DNA of 64,000 nucleotides from Vibrio palustris (GTDB lineage Bacteria > Pseudomonadota > Gammaproteobacteria > Enterobacterales > Vibrionaceae): the NCBI RefSeq assembly GCF_024346995.1, contig NZ_AP024887.1:1302001-1366000 (forward strand), written 5' to 3'. Below are positions 19,288-27,256 of the stretch, piece after piece (the stretch's first letter is position 1; every line of letters begins with the position of its first letter). The translations under genes and the position numbers were made by a program. The notes beneath the pieces are model-generated. The model saw only the letters and a program-made list of their open reading frames with translations, searched no databases and had not been told where the DNA came from.

Positions 19288-20502
19288 TTGTTATTTGAGC
19301 AACCGAACAAACCTATGCGTTTTCTGACTGCCTTCTCTCACTCACAAGATATTAAGGTAGCAATACAGACTATTTTGGCGCAAACCGGAAGCTATAAACC
19401 AGCAGCAATGCTTTGTTATTATACCGAATCGTATTGCGCTCAAGAGTTAGCAAATGAACTCACATCGAGGCTGCCGAACGTGCCTTTTATTGGCTGTTCT
19501 TCATGTAAAGGTATCATGACAGATAAGGGGTATCATGAAGGGCCGGTTGTTGGAGTCTTATTTATTTACGACCAATCAGCCTGTGCTTATGGATCGGCTT
19601 TGGTCAATTTAGACGCGTGTGATGATTATCCTAAATTAATCAATAATCTCATCGAAGATGCACTAAAAGATGCCGACAGAATAGGGGAAATCCCAAGCTT
19701 GATTCTTCTGCACGCTACGCCAGGCTATGAAGAATTGTATATGGACGCGATTGATGAAAAATTTGGTACTCACATCCCAATTATTGGCGGAAGTGCTGCG
19801 GATAATAAGATTCAAAACCACTGGTCTTTGATTACAGATAAAGGAATCAGTCAAAATGGGATTGCTCTACAATTGTTCTTTACCAGTAAACCGCTCACAA
19901 CAGGGTTCAGTGCAGGCTATTCCCCAACCACATTTAAAGGTGAAATTACCTTAGCAAAAGAACGCACTATTTTTGAAATAGATGGTTTGCCAGCAAAGGA
20001 TGTCTATAAGCAATGGATAAACGATCACGCTGGAGAAAATATTTCGGAACAATATATTTTCGATCATATTGCACGTTTTCCCATCGGGGTAATGGCCGGT
20101 ACTATTCATCAACAACCATACTTTAAACTTACTCATCCTTTATGTTTTCATCCAGATGGTTGGATTGAAGTTTTTGCTGAAATGCAAACTGGCGAAGAAA
20201 TTCAATTGATGACTGGCTCACTTGATCAATTGATCTCCCGAGCCTCACGGGTAGTCAAAGAAGCGAATATACAAAATTATCACGAATCGTTAGTTTGTGG
20301 CGCTATCATTATTCATTGTGCTGGCTCGATGCTTCGGTTGGGAGATGAAATCCAACAAGTCTACCAAAAACTTATTTCCCAAATGAATGGACAACCTTTT
20401 ATTTGTCCATTTACCTTTGGTGAGCAAGGCCGTTTTATTGGTGGAGAGAACGCTCATGGCAACCTTATGATCTCTTCAGTAATTTTTTATGATTCAGAAT
20501 AG
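19288..20502 (+). CDS. nosP: FIST-domain nitric-oxide sensing protein NosP (VpsV)
   Basis: This 404-residue cytoplasmic protein has an N-terminal FIST domain (PNVPFIGCSSCKGIMT, then IPIIGGSAADN) and a C-terminal FIST_C domain (ALVNLDA to FCPFTFGEQG region). The pairing with a hybrid histidine kinase directly downstream matches V. cholerae VC1444-VC1445, described as VpsV/VpsS and as NosP/NahK. NosP proteins bind haem and nitric oxide and inhibit the partner kinase. The start is probably TTG at 19288, which has GAGGAC just upstream; the next ATG (19315) has no ribosome-binding site and would cut into the domain. Haem binding is inferred from the family, not seen. Confidence 0.85.
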   Translation: MLFEQPNKPMRFLTAFSHSQDIKVAIQTILAQTGSYKPAAMLCYYTESYCAQELANELTSRLPNVPFIGCSSCKGIMTDKGYHEGPVVGVLFIYDQSACAYGSALVNLDACDDYPKLINNLIEDALKDADRIGEIPSLILLHATPGYEELYMDAIDEKFGTHIPIIGGSAADNKIQNHWSLITDKGISQNGIALQLFFTSKPLTTGFSAGYSPTTFKGEITLAKERTIFEIDGLPAKDVYKQWINDHAGENISEQYIFDHIARFPIGVMAGTIHQQPYFKLTHPLCFHPDGWIEVFAEMQTGEEIQLMTGSLDQLISRASRVVKEANIQNYHESLVCGAIIIHCAGSMLRLGDEIQQVYQKLISQMNGQPFICPFTFGEQGRFIGGENAHGNLMISSVIFYDSE

Positions 20503-20514
20503 TGTAATCGCCTT

Positions 20515-22287
20515 ATGAATTCAGAAAAAGTTGAGTTACTTAATGAAACCTTATTAGAGCTCGAACGCAGTAAAGAGCGTGAACAACGTTTAGCAGAAGA
20601 AAATCACGTCATTTTAGCGACGTTATCGGCACTAAGTAATGCCGACAACAAGTACCAAATTTTTGAAGAATTAAAAAAGTCGTTAAGTCGTTATATTGAA
20701 TTTGATAACTTTGTCGTGATCTCTAAAAGTAAAAGTTGCTCGTCTTTTTTTACCTTTCTTACGTCTAACTCGGATTTTGAAGGTAAACAGTGGCGTCATA
20801 CTAAAAAGTTTCAACGTGTTCTGGATGGTGAAGGCATCATTCTTTTTGAGCCCGAAGAGCAAGAAGAATTTCGCTATTTAAGTGTTGAGCTGCAACAACA
20901 GCTAAAATCGGTATTAATGACGGGGATTCGTGCAGAAGCGAGCGATTCTGTATTGTTGCTAACAGGAACTCGAAAAGGGCAGTTCAGTATTGACACGAAG
21001 GCGACGTTATTACGATTTCGACCTTTGCTCGAACGTGCCATCAGTGATATCGAGTATAAAGAAGAGTTGCAGCAGTTAGTTAATATCAAAACACGAGAAT
21101 TATCGATCGCCCAACAGCAAGCAGAACAAGCCAATGAGTCTAAATCTCAATTTTTGGCCATGATGAGTCATGAACTACGCACACCATTGAATGCAGTGTT
21201 GGGTTTGATAGATGTTCTCCGGCAGAAAAGTAACGTTGAGCAATGTACGTTGCTTGAACAGATGGAAAATTCGGCAGAACTGTTGTTAATTATTATTAAT
21301 GACATACTGGACTTAAGTCGGATTGAATTCGGACACTTTAAGTTACAGTGTAACTGGATAAATCTAGACAAACACCTGCGTCATTCCTTGTCATATCACG
21401 AGCAGCTTGCCACAGAAAAACATATTCAGTTTGATATTGAACAATCTGTCGATGCTATATCAAGTTATTGGCTTGATCCAACCCGACTAACACAGATTAT
21501 TTATAACGTTGTCGGCAATGCAATCAAGTTTACCTCTGAAGGTAAAGTATCGATTCAATTAACCACGCATAATCAAGAAACCTTGGAGATTGTCGTTAAA
21601 GACACTGGTATTGGTATTGAACAATCGCGATTAGAACAATTATTCAATCCATTTATTCAAGCGGATAATTCGATTACACGCAATTACGGTGGCACAGGTT
21701 TAGGACTTACTATAACCAAGTACTTAGTGGATATGATGGACGGCGACATCGCCATCGACAGTCACCTTGGTCAAGGGACGTGTTTTACGATTCGTATTCC
21801 ATTACAGTCACAGAAACCATCGATAGAGGCGGTTTTTGATAATCTAACGATGGGTCAAATACCGAATGCCAGCGCGAATCATTCCATAGAGTCACTTGTT
21901 TCTGATATTGCTGAAAACAAGAAACAACCGCATCACATTTTAGTGGTCGAAGATACGAAAACCAACCAGATGGTGATTAAGCTACTGTTGACACGTTTAG
22001 GGTATCAGGTTTCTTTAGCGAATAATGGATTAGAAGCCGTCGACTTATTATCAAGTGATCATGATTACGATTTAGTATTTATGGATTTATCGATGCCAGT
22101 CATGGATGGTATGGAAGCCACACGTTTGATTCGTGAAAAACACATTTTAATTCCAATCATTGCATTGACCGCGCATGCGATGAGCCAAGAAAAAGACGGT
22201 TGTATGCATGTTGGTATGAATGACTTTGTGATGAAACCAATACGTACTCAAGATCTCACAACGATACTTAATCAATATTTACATTAA
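20515..22287 (+). CDS. vpsS: Hybrid sensor histidine kinase VpsS (NahK type)
   Basis: The 590-residue product lacks membrane helices. It consists of an N-terminal coiled coil, a GAF-like region (about 45-185), a second coiled coil, and a HisKA domain with the phospho-His in MMSHELRTPLNAVLGL. The ATPase domain follows (NVVGNAIKFTS, DTGIGI, GGTGLGLTI), then a C-terminal receiver with phosphoacceptor Asp in LVFMDLSMPVMDG and Lys in VMKP. In V. cholerae VpsS passes phosphate to LuxU and so into the quorum-sensing and biofilm cascade. It starts 12 nt after nosP and is the last gene of the operon; a 16-bp hairpin follows. Confidence 0.87.
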   Translation: MNSEKVELLNETLLELERSKEREQRLAEENHVILATLSALSNADNKYQIFEELKKSLSRYIEFDNFVVISKSKSCSSFFTFLTSNSDFEGKQWRHTKKFQRVLDGEGIILFEPEEQEEFRYLSVELQQQLKSVLMTGIRAEASDSVLLLTGTRKGQFSIDTKATLLRFRPLLERAISDIEYKEELQQLVNIKTRELSIAQQQAEQANESKSQFLAMMSHELRTPLNAVLGLIDVLRQKSNVEQCTLLEQMENSAELLLIIINDILDLSRIEFGHFKLQCNWINLDKHLRHSLSYHEQLATEKHIQFDIEQSVDAISSYWLDPTRLTQIIYNVVGNAIKFTSEGKVSIQLTTHNQETLEIVVKDTGIGIEQSRLEQLFNPFIQADNSITRNYGGTGLGLTITKYLVDMMDGDIAIDSHLGQGTCFTIRIPLQSQKPSIEAVFDNLTMGQIPNASANHSIESLVSDIAENKKQPHHILVVEDTKTNQMVIKLLLTRLGYQVSLANNGLEAVDLLSSDHDYDLVFMDLSMPVMDGMEATRLIREKHILIPIIALTAHAMSQEKDGCMHVGMNDFVMKPIRTQDLTTILNQYLH

Positions 22288-22304
22288 GCTCGGTGCTTAG
22301 TTTT

Positions 22305-22351
22305 CCTAATAACCATATTTTTAATCGAAGATGATAAATATGGTTATTAGG
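22305..22351 (+). terminator. 16-bp perfect hairpin after vpsS
   Basis: CCTAATAACCATATTT (22305-22320) and AAATATGGTTATTAGG (22336-22351) pair perfectly around a 15-nt loop, 18 nt after the vpsS stop. TATTTTATGG follows, a modest T run. It probably ends the nosP-vpsS transcript, although the stem is AT-rich and unusually long. Confidence 0.6.
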
Positions 22352-22444
22352 TATTTTATGGTAAATAGTTATGTTTAATAGACATGGGGATTAAATACCA
22401 TAATAGGGAATAATCATCATGAGGATGTCGTCCAAATCAACATT

Positions 22445-22472
22445 ATTTAACATAATATACATAATGCGAACT
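22445..22472 (-). other. dif: dif chromosome-dimer resolution site
   Basis: Read on the minus strand, the 28-mer consists of an 11-bp XerC arm AGTTCGCATTA, a 6-bp centre TGTATA, and an 11-bp XerD arm TTATGTTAAAT. The XerD arm is identical to that of E. coli dif. The XerC arm differs from the E. coli arm GGTGCGCATAA at three positions and from the V. cholerae dif1 arm AGTGCGCATTA, as I recall it, at one. The centre TGTATA equals that of E. coli. XerC and XerD recombine two such sites under FtsK control to separate dimeric chromosomes. Nearby matS sites and KOPS polarity support the call. Confidence 0.9.
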
Positions 22473-22904
22473 AAAGATAATATAGACAGGTTAAGAGATT
22501 TAGGTTGATTTGCGCTGTTATTGATTACTAGCTTTGGTGTCTATACTGACACGTACTCGTTAGCTCAAACTTATTACTTACTATGAATTTAAACTAAAAT
22601 TTTTTGGTACCTATAATGACCCTTACTAAAGAAATCGTATGCATCCGTATCTTCCAGGATTCGTTCTTTAGCTAATGAACGAAAACTTAATATGGTTGAG
22701 TCCTAAAAAATATTCGATTGGTTTTGTCTATCAGTTACCACGACTCTATGTCAGTCTTCTGAACTGTAGTTTTCAGTTGCAGTTATTATTACGCGATTAG
22801 TGAATTTTTATCTACTCAACGGTGTGCTTGTCGCGCCACTATTTTCGTTGCTGGTTCAGTGCTAGTCGTTAGTTAAGTAGCCTAATATGATAGTAAAAAT
22901 ATAA

Positions 22905-22917
22905 GTGACAGCGTCAC
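22905..22917. other. matS site (MatP binding), perfect
   Basis: GTGACAGCGTCAC fits GTGACRNYGTCAC at all positions. It lies 0.43 kb from dif and 1.3 kb from matP itself. Confidence 0.85.
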
Positions 22918-23033
22918 GTAGATATTACTTCTATCTGGTCAGTTACCACTCATTCGTTTCTTTCGATTATGACAGCATTTTTGAAGTATAAAGCGACGAT
23001 GAGTATTGAGATTGACGGACGACTTTTCTATAG

Positions 23034-23060
23034 GCAAAAAGAAACCCGCATTAAGCGGGT
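23034..23060 (-). terminator. Minus-strand intrinsic terminator in the gene-free segment
   Basis: On the minus strand the sequence reads ACCCGC, TTAAT, GCGGGT and then TTTCTTTTTG: a 6-bp GC-rich stem with a T-rich tail, the classic form of a terminator. No annotated minus-strand gene ends here (DUF3634 ends about 820 nt to the right), so it implies a transcript that starts between 23061 and 23882. Confidence 0.65.
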
Positions 23061-23296
23061 AAAAAGGAGTTATCCAACAAAAGTCATCCCAAGTAAACTT
23101 ACTCTTTTAGTGTAGTTACTCTATTTTCTTTTGCTAATCGATATACCGAGTTTTTTATATCAACATGAAGTATTGTGATCTACCTCTTTTTTATGTGCAA
23201 AATGCGTCCGAGTTTAGTTCAGCACTTAGCTCGATATGTCAGTTACCTAACGATAAACACTTAACCGCTAAGTAATCAGAGAAATCCGCCATAAAA

Positions 23297-23316
23297 TACT
23301 GTTTATTTATACAGTA
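23297..23316. promoter_or_regulatory. LexA (SOS) box 1
   Basis: TACTGT-N8-ACAGTA, with the AT-rich spacer TTATTTAT, matches the gamma-proteobacterial LexA consensus TACTGT(AT)4ACAGTA in every conserved position. The palindrome extends to 12-bp arms (23291-23302 and 23311-23322). It sits about 230 nt upstream of the minus-strand terminator and, on the other side, just before GAAAAGGAAAAATGG, a ribosome-binding site with an ATG at 23336. Confidence 0.75.
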
Positions 23317-23412
23317 TTTTATATGAAAAGGAAAAATGGAGACGTTATTGAGCACTATCATCAGATTTTAATCAAAAACGCTCAATAACTAGCATGCAAG
23401 CGATTCAATGAT

Positions 23413-23432
23413 AGCTGTATGCATATACAGTT
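23413..23432. promoter_or_regulatory. LexA (SOS) box 2
   Basis: CTGT-ATGCATAT-ACAG at 23415-23430 is a second strong LexA core, 116 bp from the first. Between the two boxes lies a 10-bp inverted repeat, GTTATTGAGC (23344-23353) with GCTCAATAAC (23380-23389). Two such cores this close are unlikely by chance. Confidence 0.7.
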
Positions 23433-23882
23433 TATTTTTATTTATCGGATCCCTACTTCATCTTTGAACGGTATACAGTACACGAGTGATATCGGTGATG
23501 AATACGCCCAAACGTTATCTCTTTATCTAACTCGGTCTCTACTTGCTGAATATTCCAGGTAAGTTGTGTCACTCGCAGTGATAGCCGAGCGCATTTATTG
23601 TCATGTATTTGAATGTTTATCTAGTGCGTAGCGCGTCATAATACTCTCTTATGTCATGTTTGTGTGGGACTACTCAGATAGAACTATACAGATGATATCG
23701 CTGTTATTATTGGCGAAGCGATAAGTGATTTATGGTAAAACTAGATGAGTGGATGTACTAGAATATGGTTATATATCGATATCGTGTAGCACTTATATAT
23801 ATGCATATTAAAATATTTAGTTATAATGCACTAGGGTGTATGGGACTATTACAAAATAAGCACACAGACTGTTTTCAAGTGC

Positions 23883-24188
23883 TTAAGCTCTTTTTTTACC
23901 TTTGGATTTAAAACCTTGATGAGGAAAAACATTACGAATATGTTGTTGAACATTTTTAGGGATATTCTTTGAAAAAACCAACTTCATACCAGTACGCAGT
24001 TGGTATACTTTTAAACTGCCATTAAGGTGATCATGTTCAGCAATGTGCTTAAGCTCACGCTGAAAAGACGGTGGACAATGGCCTTTTTCCGTTTTTATAT
24101 GCCCGTTTTTAAACGTCATTTTGAGTACAGGTCTATCAGCAACTAACCAAATAACCACGACTAAGCCAACAATAACTAGATACCACAT
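23883..24188 (-). CDS. DUF3634 family membrane protein
   Basis: A 101-residue protein with one N-terminal hydrophobic helix (MWYLVIVGLVVVIWLVA) and a basic cytoplasmic domain containing KGHCPPSFQRELKHIAEH and IPKNVQQHIRNVFPHQGF. I recognise the latter as DUF3634, a vibrio-type family without known function. It lies 12 nt downstream of matP and is probably cotranscribed. Because MatP also anchors the terminus near the division machinery, a membrane partner is an attractive but untested idea. Confidence 0.72.
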   Translation of the reverse strand: MWYLVIVGLVVVIWLVADRPVLKMTFKNGHIKTEKGHCPPSFQRELKHIAEHDHLNGSLKVYQLRTGMKLVFSKNIPKNVQQHIRNVFPHQGFKSKGKKRA

Positions 24189-24200
24189 AGGTTCACCTCG

Positions 24201-24653
24201 TTAATCTGATGATAATAGCTTATTTAAATCTTGTTTTAAGCTTGATACGGTACGACTGGCCTTTTCACTACGCGATGCTTCACTTAATAGGTATTCAATA
24301 GCATCAGATAACGTGCAGCCTAATTCTGTGGCGCGCTCAGACAGTTTTTCCCAAACTCGATAATCGAGATCAATCGATTTCTTACGGGTATGGACCTGCT
24401 CTGCGTTAAAATGTCGCTTACGCTTTGCACGAATGGCTTGCTTTAATTTATTCTCAAAATCTGGCGCCATGTGGTTATCTATCCACTCTAATACCAGCGT
24501 TGGATCACTTTCTAACGAGCGTAATTGGTGAATCGCTAAATCTATTTCACTGGTATCGACATAACGCGTAATGCGCTCGCCAGCCTTCCATTTATTGACA
24601 AGGTACTGCCATTTCCAACCACATTCTAAGTTTTCAAGCTGCTGATATTTCAT
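24201..24653 (-). CDS. matP: Macrodomain Ter organiser MatP
   Basis: This 150-residue DNA-binding protein contains the MatP N-terminal helical domain (KYQQLENLECGWKWQYLVNKW, then RYVDTSEID), the ribbon-helix-helix segment KKSIDLDYRVWEKLSERA, and a C-terminal coiled coil for tetramerisation. MatP binds matS sites, compacts the terminus domain and, in E. coli, links it to the divisome through ZapB. The window contains four perfect matS sites, so protein and targets occur together. A near-consensus site lies 27 nt upstream of the start (24680-24692), which could allow autoregulation. Confidence 0.95.
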   Translation of the reverse strand: MKYQQLENLECGWKWQYLVNKWKAGERITRYVDTSEIDLAIHQLRSLESDPTLVLEWIDNHMAPDFENKLKQAIRAKRKRHFNAEQVHTRKKSIDLDYRVWEKLSERATELGCTLSDAIEYLLSEASRSEKASRTVSSLKQDLNKLLSSD

Positions 24654-24679
24654 GGTTCACAAATCCGTATCCGTTTAGA

Positions 24680-24692
24680 GTGACAGCGTAAC
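24680..24692. promoter_or_regulatory. Near-matS sequence upstream of matP
   Basis: GTGACAGCGTAAC differs from matS at one position (GTAAC instead of GTCAC). It lies in the matP-lon intergenic region 27 nt before the matP start codon. Another variant with the same substitution is at 15499-15511. Confidence 0.35.
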
Positions 24693-24835
24693 CCATACGA
24701 TGCTCACATTCAATTTTAAAGAGTAGAAATTCGATCATAGTCATTCGCGATCTCTATGCTATTCGCCAGCGTTATTTTTCTATATAATCTAGCCCCTTTT
24801 TCATTAGTATTTTCAATGCGGAACAGTACATTTCA

Positions 24836-26485
24836 ATGACTCAAGATATTTGGCGTTCAGTAACGCCTCAATATGATGAATATGAAGCGCAGTTTGCTCA
24901 ATATTCTTCTATACCAGAAAAAACACTGCTCGAGGTACAACCTCGCTTAGCAGCAACGCTTTCTCAGTTCATCGAAATGGAAGGCTTCACCCGCCTACTA
25001 TTGATTAATGCCCCCGATAATTCGATATATCGACAGCATATCGAACAGTCATTACAACATAGTCTGCAAGGTCGTTGTCCGGTTCTTCGTACAGAGACAT
25101 TAAACATGGCCGATATATTCGGTCAAATTAAGGCTAACCATGGTGCGGTGACTCAACATATCCCTGGGTTGCTTGAACAAGCCGATGGTGGTTATCTAAT
25201 CGTATCAGCGAATTTGTTATTGGCGAACCCTAAATACTGGCCAGCGTTGAAAGCGGCCATATTGGGCGAAGAATCTTCACCTATAAATTGTGATCCAGAG
25301 TCGCCCATTTTGCAATTGCCACGTCGTCGTTTCGATATCCGTGTCATTGTATTAGGTGATCGCACTCAGCTTGGTGATGTGGATTATTTAGATGCAGATA
25401 TTCACGCTGGCTTATGCTTATTTAGTGAATTAGAACCAGACATTAAGTTAAATGCTGAAACTTTGTTAGATTACCTTGGCTTTTTAAAATGGTTGTGTCG
25501 TCTCTATGACCTGCCTACTTTAACAACAGAGGCCATTCATACGTTAATGAAAGCAGGTGCTCGCTATACTGAAGATCAGAATTACGCCCCGCTGTGTCTA
25601 TTATGGCATCGTTCTATACTTGCCGAATGTAAAGGTTACACTCAAGGTAAAACCATTGAAGCGCTTGATGTAGAAGCCGTTATACGACAACGTTATGACC
25701 GTGCTTCTTACTTACCTCAGCGAGCCATGGATGACATTCTTGATGGCCAAGTGATTATTGAAACCGATGGTAAGCAAATTGGCCAAGTGAACGCCTTAAC
25801 CGTCGTAGACGTGGCTGGGCATCCACTGTCTTATGGTGAGCCGGCACGTATATCTTGCGTCGTTCACTTTGGTGATGGTGATATTTCAGATGTAGAAAGA
25901 AAAGTTGAGCTTGGTGGCAGTTTGCATGCCAAAGGCATGATGATCATGCAAGCATTTGTAAGTAGCGCACTTGATTTAGATGTCCCCTTGCCTTTTTCTG
26001 CTTCAGTTGTATTTGAGCAGTCTTATAGTGAAGTCGACGGTGACAGCGCTTCCCTCGCTGAGTTATGTGCATGGGTGAGCGCTCTTTCTGGGCTTCCTAT
26101 CGATCAACAAAAAGCCGTGACGGGTGCTGTTGACCAATTCGGTCGTGTACAAGCCGTTGGTGGTCTCAACGAAAAGATTGAAGGTTTTTATCGTGTGTGT
26201 GAACATCAGGGATTCACGGGTCACCAAGGGGTGATTATGCCGGCAAGTAACTTGAAACATCTTGCGCTGCACCCGACAGTAGTAGAAAGTATTAAACAAG
26301 GTCAGTTTTCAATATGGCCAGTAGAAACCGTCGATGATGTTATGCCTATCTTGTTGGCAACCCCTTTTCGCGGAAAACAAGAAAAAGACAATGTACTGCG
26401 CCGTATTGCAGATCGTATTGATAATTTTGACAAAGACGATACGCCCGACACTTGGTTTGAACGGATTAAAAACAAGCTGTTTTAA
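24836..26485 (+). CDS. Lon-family protease, LonB/YcbZ type
   Basis: The 549-residue product has a C-terminal Lon protease domain: the putative nucleophile Ser in DGDSASLAEL and the Lys in VGGLNEKIEG, so the Ser-Lys dyad is intact. The N-terminal ATPase region is degenerate, since the P-loop position reads LINAPDNSIYRQ without GKT and no proper Walker B is present. It matches E. coli YcbZ in architecture and in position between matP and fabA. It may be an ATP-independent or regulated protease; the substrate is unknown. The fabA operators begin at its stop codon. Confidence 0.85.
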   Translation: MTQDIWRSVTPQYDEYEAQFAQYSSIPEKTLLEVQPRLAATLSQFIEMEGFTRLLLINAPDNSIYRQHIEQSLQHSLQGRCPVLRTETLNMADIFGQIKANHGAVTQHIPGLLEQADGGYLIVSANLLLANPKYWPALKAAILGEESSPINCDPESPILQLPRRRFDIRVIVLGDRTQLGDVDYLDADIHAGLCLFSELEPDIKLNAETLLDYLGFLKWLCRLYDLPTLTTEAIHTLMKAGARYTEDQNYAPLCLLWHRSILAECKGYTQGKTIEALDVEAVIRQRYDRASYLPQRAMDDILDGQVIIETDGKQIGQVNALTVVDVAGHPLSYGEPARISCVVHFGDGDISDVERKVELGGSLHAKGMMIMQAFVSSALDLDVPLPFSASVVFEQSYSEVDGDSASLAELCAWVSALSGLPIDQQKAVTGAVDQFGRVQAVGGLNEKIEGFYRVCEHQGFTGHQGVIMPASNLKHLALHPTVVESIKQGQFSIWPVETVDDVMPILLATPFRGKQEKDNVLRRIADRIDNFDKDDTPDTWFERIKNKLF

Positions 26486-27202: not shown

Positions 27203-27256
27203 AAACTTCCTGTGAAGGAATAACGATAGTAAGTCTGTTATGTCGATTCCACTCTA

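Follow-up and report, generated by a model that had tools for sequence, protein, structure and literature searches.

This work concerns the terminus region of chromosome 1 of Vibrio palustris, analysed as a stretch of 64,000 nucleotides (the window; contig positions C1:1302001-1366000), and specifically the recombination site dif at 22445-22472 together with a conserved sequence element beside it. dif, XerC, XerD (jointly XerCD) and FtsK constitute a textbook system in which the two recombinases act on the two copies of dif of a chromosome dimer once FtsK arrives, and the chromosomal dif is regarded as a 28-bp sequence that needs no accessory DNA. Besides dif itself, which is known, we describe a partner element that is apparently undescribed before. 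It is conserved, keeps to the XerD side of dif and to one orientation, facing it, and occurs jointly at the dif sites of both chromosomes as well as at plasmid-borne dif sites. We estimate at roughly 60% the probability that dif and this element form a two-part module, in which a protein bound to the element would contact XerD via a DNA loop and tune its cutting. These observations suggest that the control of dif extends beyond its 28 letters.

Anatomy, distribution and spacing of the partner element

The element was absent from an earlier interpretation of the window made from its letters alone (the sequence-only reading) and was first met as a blastn match between the flank of dif and a phage collection, spanning 74 non-coding bases beside the dif of V. 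cholerae. Its layout, derived by alignment by eye and pattern search, consists of an A box (ATTNAACATAA or TTTAAC.ATAA), 2-5 bases, a B box (ATTTACCATAAARTANNTAAT) and then, usually, an inverted repeat (Table 1). The B box comprises an XerD-arm-like part at 22356-22366, which faces dif and equals the arm in 10 of 11 positions, a 6-bp centre at 22350-22355 and the tetranucleotide TAAT at 22346-22349, which corresponds to the inner end of an XerC arm. Written on the dif strand, the element ATTTACCATAA-AATACC-TAAT aligns at the same spacing with the reverse complement of dif, ATTTAACATAA-TATACA-TAATGCGCACT, with 14 of 15 arm positions equal; ATTTA-CATAA and TAAT are kept at identical spacing, and where the XerC arm would have its outer GCGCACT, the inverted repeat starts instead. 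In several genomes, dif-like sites have TTATGGTAAAT as their XerD arm. The B box resembles a second, facing Xer site whose XerC half would be crippled.

Among 137 instances of the element, the A box had the form TTNAAC..AA in 120, and 13-nt arms of the inverted repeat paired with at most two mismatches in 86, representing 34 different arms (mean mismatches 2.31 versus 5.34 in shuffles). The string TTTACCAT was common to 135 of 137 XerD-side flanks, whereas no 8-mer on the XerC side was shared by more than 22. As the B box had served to select these 137, the first figure is partly circular and only the second is informative. The spacer also tends to carry a C-rich box: on the XerD side, 110 of 137 spacers had CCC, often CCCT, at a distance of about 35-50 bp from dif (shuffle mean 55, maximum 68; GGG in 29), and also in 27 of 37 flanks lacking the element. 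Could this box be half of an FtsK-orienting polar sequence (KOPS) pointing to dif? The full CCCTNCCC was present in 0 of the 137 XerD-side spacers.

Distribution within the genus was surveyed in 69 of 148 Vibrio genomes, hand-chosen for sites on large contigs and not at random. A genome-wide search for the element pattern at up to one mismatch, performed independently of dif, returned 107 matches in 51 of the 69 genomes and none for the reversed control. One hundred of these lay less than 400 bp from a dif, all on its XerD side and in a single orientation, while the remaining seven were 3.7-72 kb from a listed dif or, on one contig (G112:C5), next to a dif whose divergence had put it out of reach of the search. 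Both dif sites carried the element in 49 genomes (48 on two replicons, and G098 on one contig), and only one site did so in two (G052 and G121). The best match in 37 further flanks, from 18 element-less genomes and the second site of G052, reached 15 of 19 conserved positions. V. palustris has a second copy at C2:563258-563278, 113 bp from dif2, and V. cholerae dif1 (locus L033) also has the element. It was likewise found on a 173-kb plasmid of V. nigripulchritudo (63 bp from dif), V. europaeus plasmids of 336 kb (71 bp) and 419 kb (74 bp), and a 64-kb contig of G112 (58 bp).

Comparable results were obtained from loci chosen by MatP, where 54 with a dif included 41 with the element, 12 without and one undecidable (41 of 53 decidable). 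On a 54-tip locus tree built from MatP, a Lon-like protein and FabA, element presence required six parsimony changes, fewer than any of 500 shuffles did (mean 11.0, minimum 8). Other genera of Vibrionaceae carried it in 48 of 54 genomes (up to one mismatch), with dif 48-159 bp away and on the right side at 28 of 29 checked loci. In other families of the order, one-mismatch matches occurred in 23 of 360 genomes and exact matches in none; one family (f2) had the element in 10 of 11 genomes, all ten at 80-107 bp from dif, and another (f10) in 2 of 12, where it is separated from dif by 738 and 1032 bp, perhaps after insertions. We regard the other 11 of the 23 as chance matches, no dif being present within 300 bp (nine loci) or 1500 bp (two loci) upstream. 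Collectively, dif has a conserved neighbouring sequence on a fixed side and in a fixed orientation and, with reservations given below, at a fixed helical phase.

Further observations concern sites that depart from this arrangement. One copy (L283, at G009:C1:1547144) has a B box next to a long inverted repeat of perfect pairing, no dif within 300 bp upstream, lies 6.4 kb from the chromosomal dif and is possibly mobile. In the element-less pairs L251/L271, L259/L279 and L261/L265, inspection by eye showed other sequences common to both XerD flanks, perhaps through recent duplication or as partner elements of a different kind. In the plasmid collection, several plasmids of Klebsiella and Salmonella gave a dif-like match without the element part.

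The distance from dif to the B box clusters around preferred values of 68-69, 79-80, 89-90, 100-101 and 111-112 bp. With one value taken per spacer cluster (177 sites in 80 clusters, 79 used) and periods of 6-16 bp scanned, the best period was 10.6 bp (R 0.54, p 0.001 by jitter); it was 10.4 bp for Vibrio only (56 clusters) and 10.8 bp for the other genera and families only (p 0.029, 36 clusters used). The clustering threshold of 0.3 was picked after the first clustering and that at 0.2 had collapsed, the first to two clusters, and a threshold of 0.4 gives R 0.52. A preference of the dif-element distance for whole helical turns is supported statistically.

Proposed mechanism and competing explanations

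Since the element is present or absent at both chromosomes together, a shared trans-acting partner would be expected, be it XerD, FtsK or an unnamed protein. In the proposed module, a protein on the element would touch the XerD subunit at dif over a short DNA loop, and this contact would tune the timing of XerD cutting. We favour a form in which XerD itself would occupy the B box, and perhaps the A box too, and the loop would keep it idle until FtsK comes; a turn-spaced, facing XerD-like site could act as a natural restraint or loading aid. The protein contact, the loop, XerD as the binder and a restraint on FtsK-independent recombination are what we infer from the arrangement of the sequences. 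In assays with V. cholerae XerCD, dif1 with A17 recombined far more in the absence of FtsK (PMC2533119), and the window dif is identical to this A17 variant of dif1 except for T at position 4 (T4) of its XerC arm. A TGTATA site occurs in 43 of 51 genomes with the element and 7 of 18 without it (p 0.0005 by Fisher's test, with no correction for relatedness), whereas A17 as such is no different (50 of 51 versus 18 of 18).

Several results weigh against this reading. The element is missing from both dif sites in 18 of the 69 Vibrio genomes and from the single E. coli dif flank that was inspected, which means that dif can do without it, and the inverted repeat is not universal, being weak or missing in one genus. 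The periodicity is sensitive to the way in which gaps are counted: counting each distinct gap per cluster once gives p 0.10, in a clustering that collapsed to two groups, and unique gap values give R of at most 0.28. Phase to the A box is weaker (R 0.41 or 0.34), spacer clusters do not replace a phylogeny, and the chromosome 2 gap of V. palustris, 113 bp, falls off the Vibrio peaks. In addition, FtsK-dependent recombination at V. cholerae dif1 and dif2 was obtained by Val et al. in an E. coli plasmid reporter that may or may not have contained the flanks (PMC2533119).

The joint presence or absence of the element would also be explained if it were linked to dif yet bound by another protein, architectural or regulatory, instead of XerD, both chromosomes losing the element together because the gene of the binder was lost in element-less lineages. 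The all-or-none pattern among the 69 genomes (49 with the element at both sites, 2 at one, 18 at neither) and the clustering on the locus tree (six changes against at least eight in the shuffles) agree with such a binder, and PepA, ArgR and ArcA at the plasmid sites cer and psi supply a precedent (PMC5357621). However, no candidate protein turned up (no phyletic-profile search was made), joint absence could also stem from shared ancestry within clades, and a second protein is not needed because the B box is so like an XerD arm with the spacing of dif. We consider this explanation unlikely, though deserving of attention. The inverted repeat raises a simpler account, in which dif is ordinary and its flank is merely the transcription terminator of the convergent gene, here the kinase. 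The repeat does fold well (RNA z-scores of -4.8 and -5.6) and begins 18 bp past the kinase stop codon, but no terminator was called there, and its AT-rich stem without a T run departs from the GC-rich stem followed by a T run of an intrinsic terminator. Moreover, the conserved part is the B box beside the stem, with the repeat missing in some instances, and the element also stands at the chromosome 2 dif, on plasmids and in other families, which makes a mere terminator very improbable.

Similarly small is the chance that the element belongs to Xer-dependent phages, as their relic or attachment site, and does not serve the host for control. Its likeness to dif and its occurrence in viral collections, where 33 of 34 element-bearing contigs have a dif at 60-128 bp, fit a phage origin, as would mobility of the dif-less copy at G009:C1:1547144; those contigs nevertheless show the chromosomal arrangement, mostly near the contig end as expected for host flanks of prophages at dif, and the element is present at unoccupied dif sites of both chromosomes across genera. 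The least credible proposal, to which we attach hardly any weight, is a signal for replication-fork arrest or termination: the element sits where forks meet, yet V. cholerae has it (L033) and is reported to lack a fork trap (PMC6549158), each dif has a single copy in one orientation, plasmids carry it too, and its helical phasing to dif would be left unexplained.

Returning to the two-part module, we propose that the element is an accessory control site, whose binder is probably XerD or else a factor that disappeared along with the element. A more comprehensive formulation is doubtful at present, although it merits consideration: the chromosomal dif of Vibrionaceae, and of one or more further families, may not suffice as a 28-bp site but work as a compound, helically phased machine of two sites. 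Its facing pseudo-Xer site would loop onto XerD and gate strand exchange; all types of replicon found to have a dif, the two chromosomes as well as large plasmids, would carry it, and both chromosomes would lose it along with its trans-acting partner.

The chromosome 1 dif and the terminus region

Table 1. Positions, strands and descriptions of features around dif in the window
Feature	Position	Strand	Description
dif of chromosome 1	22445..22472	-	XerC arm 22462-22472 AGTTCGCATTA, centre 22456-22461 TGTATA, XerD arm 22445-22455 TTATGTTAAAT
C-rich box CCC	22406..22408	-	within TTCCCTATT, XerD side of dif
A box	22369..22379	-	ATTAAACATAA; weaker XerD-arm-like repeat between dif and B box
B box	22346..22366	-	ATTTACCATAAAATACCTAAT; XerD side, 78 bp from dif
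Inverted repeat	22305..22351		arms 22305-22320 and 22336-22351, 16/16 complementary; directly behind the B box, overlapping its end
Hybrid histidine kinase	20515..22287	+	HisKA, HATPase_c, Response_reg
matS nearest dif	22905..22917		GTGACAGCGTCAC
matP	24201..24653	-	Pfam MatP and MatP_C; 1.7 kb from dif

The assembly comprises two contigs totalling 3,736,840 bases (C1, 2,654,073 bp; C2, 1,082,767 bp). The minus-strand 28-mer stands in the window exactly as the sequence-only reading had it, with the canonical architecture of two 11-bp arms around a 6-bp centre and a conserved XerD arm. At up to three mismatches it was matched once in the window and in none of 100 shuffles, and a genome-wide search found one dif per contig, two in total, the same two counts being returned by a pattern with an N-filled centre; accordingly, chromosome 1 holds no better candidate. 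The chromosome 2 site reads GGTGCGCATTA-TATGTG-TTATGTTAAAT. The claimed identity of XerD arm and centre with E. coli dif was borne out by the site present in 5384 of 5426 E. coli genomes, and the similarity of the XerC arm to dif1 by the V. cholerae arm AGTGCGCATTA (TLC-Kn1 record, L033), one letter off. Both recombinases are encoded, scoring 355.7 bits for XerC (curated cut-off 335.15) and 383.8 bits for XerD (329.6). These data confirm 22445-22472 as the genuine dif of chromosome 1, at which XerCD are predicted to resolve dimers by recombination. The further suggestion that it is a port for Xer-dependent mobile elements found no counterpart here, because the site is unoccupied, with a single dif and the kinase gene directly adjoining; V. 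cholerae carries TLC at the corresponding place.

Position and surroundings place this dif at the terminus. It lies at C1:1,324,445, or 49.9% of the contig, one per chromosome and near the GC-skew switch opposite the origin, which we put at the ends of the C1 contig because the skew switches there too. GC skew was positive in 10 of 10 sampled 20-kb stretches to the left of dif and negative in 10 of 10 to the right. Over 224 kb of continuous sequence the cumulative maximum fell at window position 27242, 4.8 kb from dif, so the expected switch occurs within a few kb of 22445 but does not coincide with it. The exact matS sites of chromosome 1, 14 in number, all fall within C1:1,161,433-1,545,675 and flank dif (about 163 kb to the left and 221 kb to the right); chromosome 2 has 12. 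Open reading frames (ORFs), domains, motif searches and skew together uphold the terminus location, the gene-free interval after the hybrid kinase, and the matP and matS neighbours. The kinase is presumably vpsS, as the sequence-only reading called it. Between 22287 and 23883 there is no ORF of at least 100 amino acids, only short open frames occupying 22288-23882, and a gene for a DUF3634 protein at 23883-24188 (minus strand) adjoins matP on its dif-facing side.

Two other signals were discarded. The KOPS motif GGGNAGGG is oriented towards dif at 37 of 44 places to the left and 40 of 47 to the right on chromosome 1, the polarity expected, and its genome-wide frequency (67+58) does not exceed that of the reversed control (72+64); because the motif is no commoner than this control, its polarity mostly restates GC skew, and we rejected KOPS enrichment as evidence. 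An Rfam scan of 20000-25000 yielded one sub-threshold match (31.8 versus 99 bits), which lies across dif from the element and which we attribute to chance.

The T4 letter, singled out earlier as a variant worth testing, proved ordinary. It fits the published gamma-proteobacterial dif consensus RNTKCGCATAATGTATATTATGTTAAAT (K, G or T; PMC5993296), and recurs in 6 of 55 MatP-fetched loci with a dif-like match, one of the 55 (L088) being a poor match; the carriers are V. injensis, V. xiamenensis, V. proteolyticus and Vibrio sp. ES.051, 99-8-1 and qd031. Across the 138 main dif sites of the 69 genomes, T4 was found in seven, and in four of six T4 genomes the other dif has G4, as here, which indicates that one XerC handles both letters. 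A special functional role for T4 was rejected on these grounds.

The same 138 sites, two per genome after eight extra dif-like sites had been dropped, never shared a 6-bp centre within a genome (0 of 69, against 18% expected for random pairs). This agrees with the rule of Val et al. (2008), in whose argument chromosomes with the same centre could fuse (PMC2533119), and widens it to the genus. Two single contigs, G098:C1 (3.24 Mb) and G132:C1 (4.07 Mb), carry two dif sites each and are possible natural chromosome fusions. Extra dif-like sites, several with A-rich centres, occur on further replicons, namely on C1, C3 and C4 of G135 and on C3 and C4 of both G121 and G006; the element gave no match at these sites at up to one mismatch.

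Significance and relation to known systems

A conserved, one-sided, turn-spaced partner of dif on both chromosomes would reopen the question of how XerD is restrained where A17-type sites leak in assays, and would also bear on how one XerCD pair serves two chromosomes and on what dif-integrating phages meet there. The element can further serve as a marker for divergent dif sites, as on the 64-kb contig of G112. Our search of the open-access literature, which left subscription papers and preprints outside, found no description of it. Val et al. (2008) report, as data not shown, that the dif1 and dif2 flanks of several Vibrio species contain no conserved motif (PMC2533119), and Carnoy and Roten (2009) report no apparent specific genetic environment of dif. 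No mention of the element occurs in the available parts of Carnoy and Roten (2009), Kono (2011), a 2017 Xer review, a 2014 paper on the V. cholerae terminus and a 2024 paper on Vibrio prophages.

The closest known counterparts are V. cholerae dif1 and E. coli dif, with which the window site shares the 11-6-11 organization, the XerD arm TTATGTTAAAT, the terminus position, the matS and matP surroundings and a genome encoding both XerC and XerD. It differs from dif1 by one letter of the XerC arm (T4) and by its centre, TGTATA as in E. coli instead of TGTATG; the B-box element accompanies the window dif and V. cholerae dif1 (L033) but not the examined E. coli dif. The plasmid sites cer (PepA, ArgR) and psi (PepA, ArcA) likewise combine a core Xer site with a conserved sequence close by, and the preferred distance between the two suggests that a nucleoprotein complex forms. 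In contrast to these, the core in the window is a chromosomal dif with a 6-bp centre, the element is about 21 bp long, Xer-site-like and on the XerD side, and no PepA, ArgR or ArcA site was identified at it. The attP of the CTX phage, compared by description, also has two dif-like sites facing each other about 90 bp apart; it is a phage integration substrate formed by a folded single strand (PMC4246890), whereas the arrangement in the window belongs to the host chromosome.
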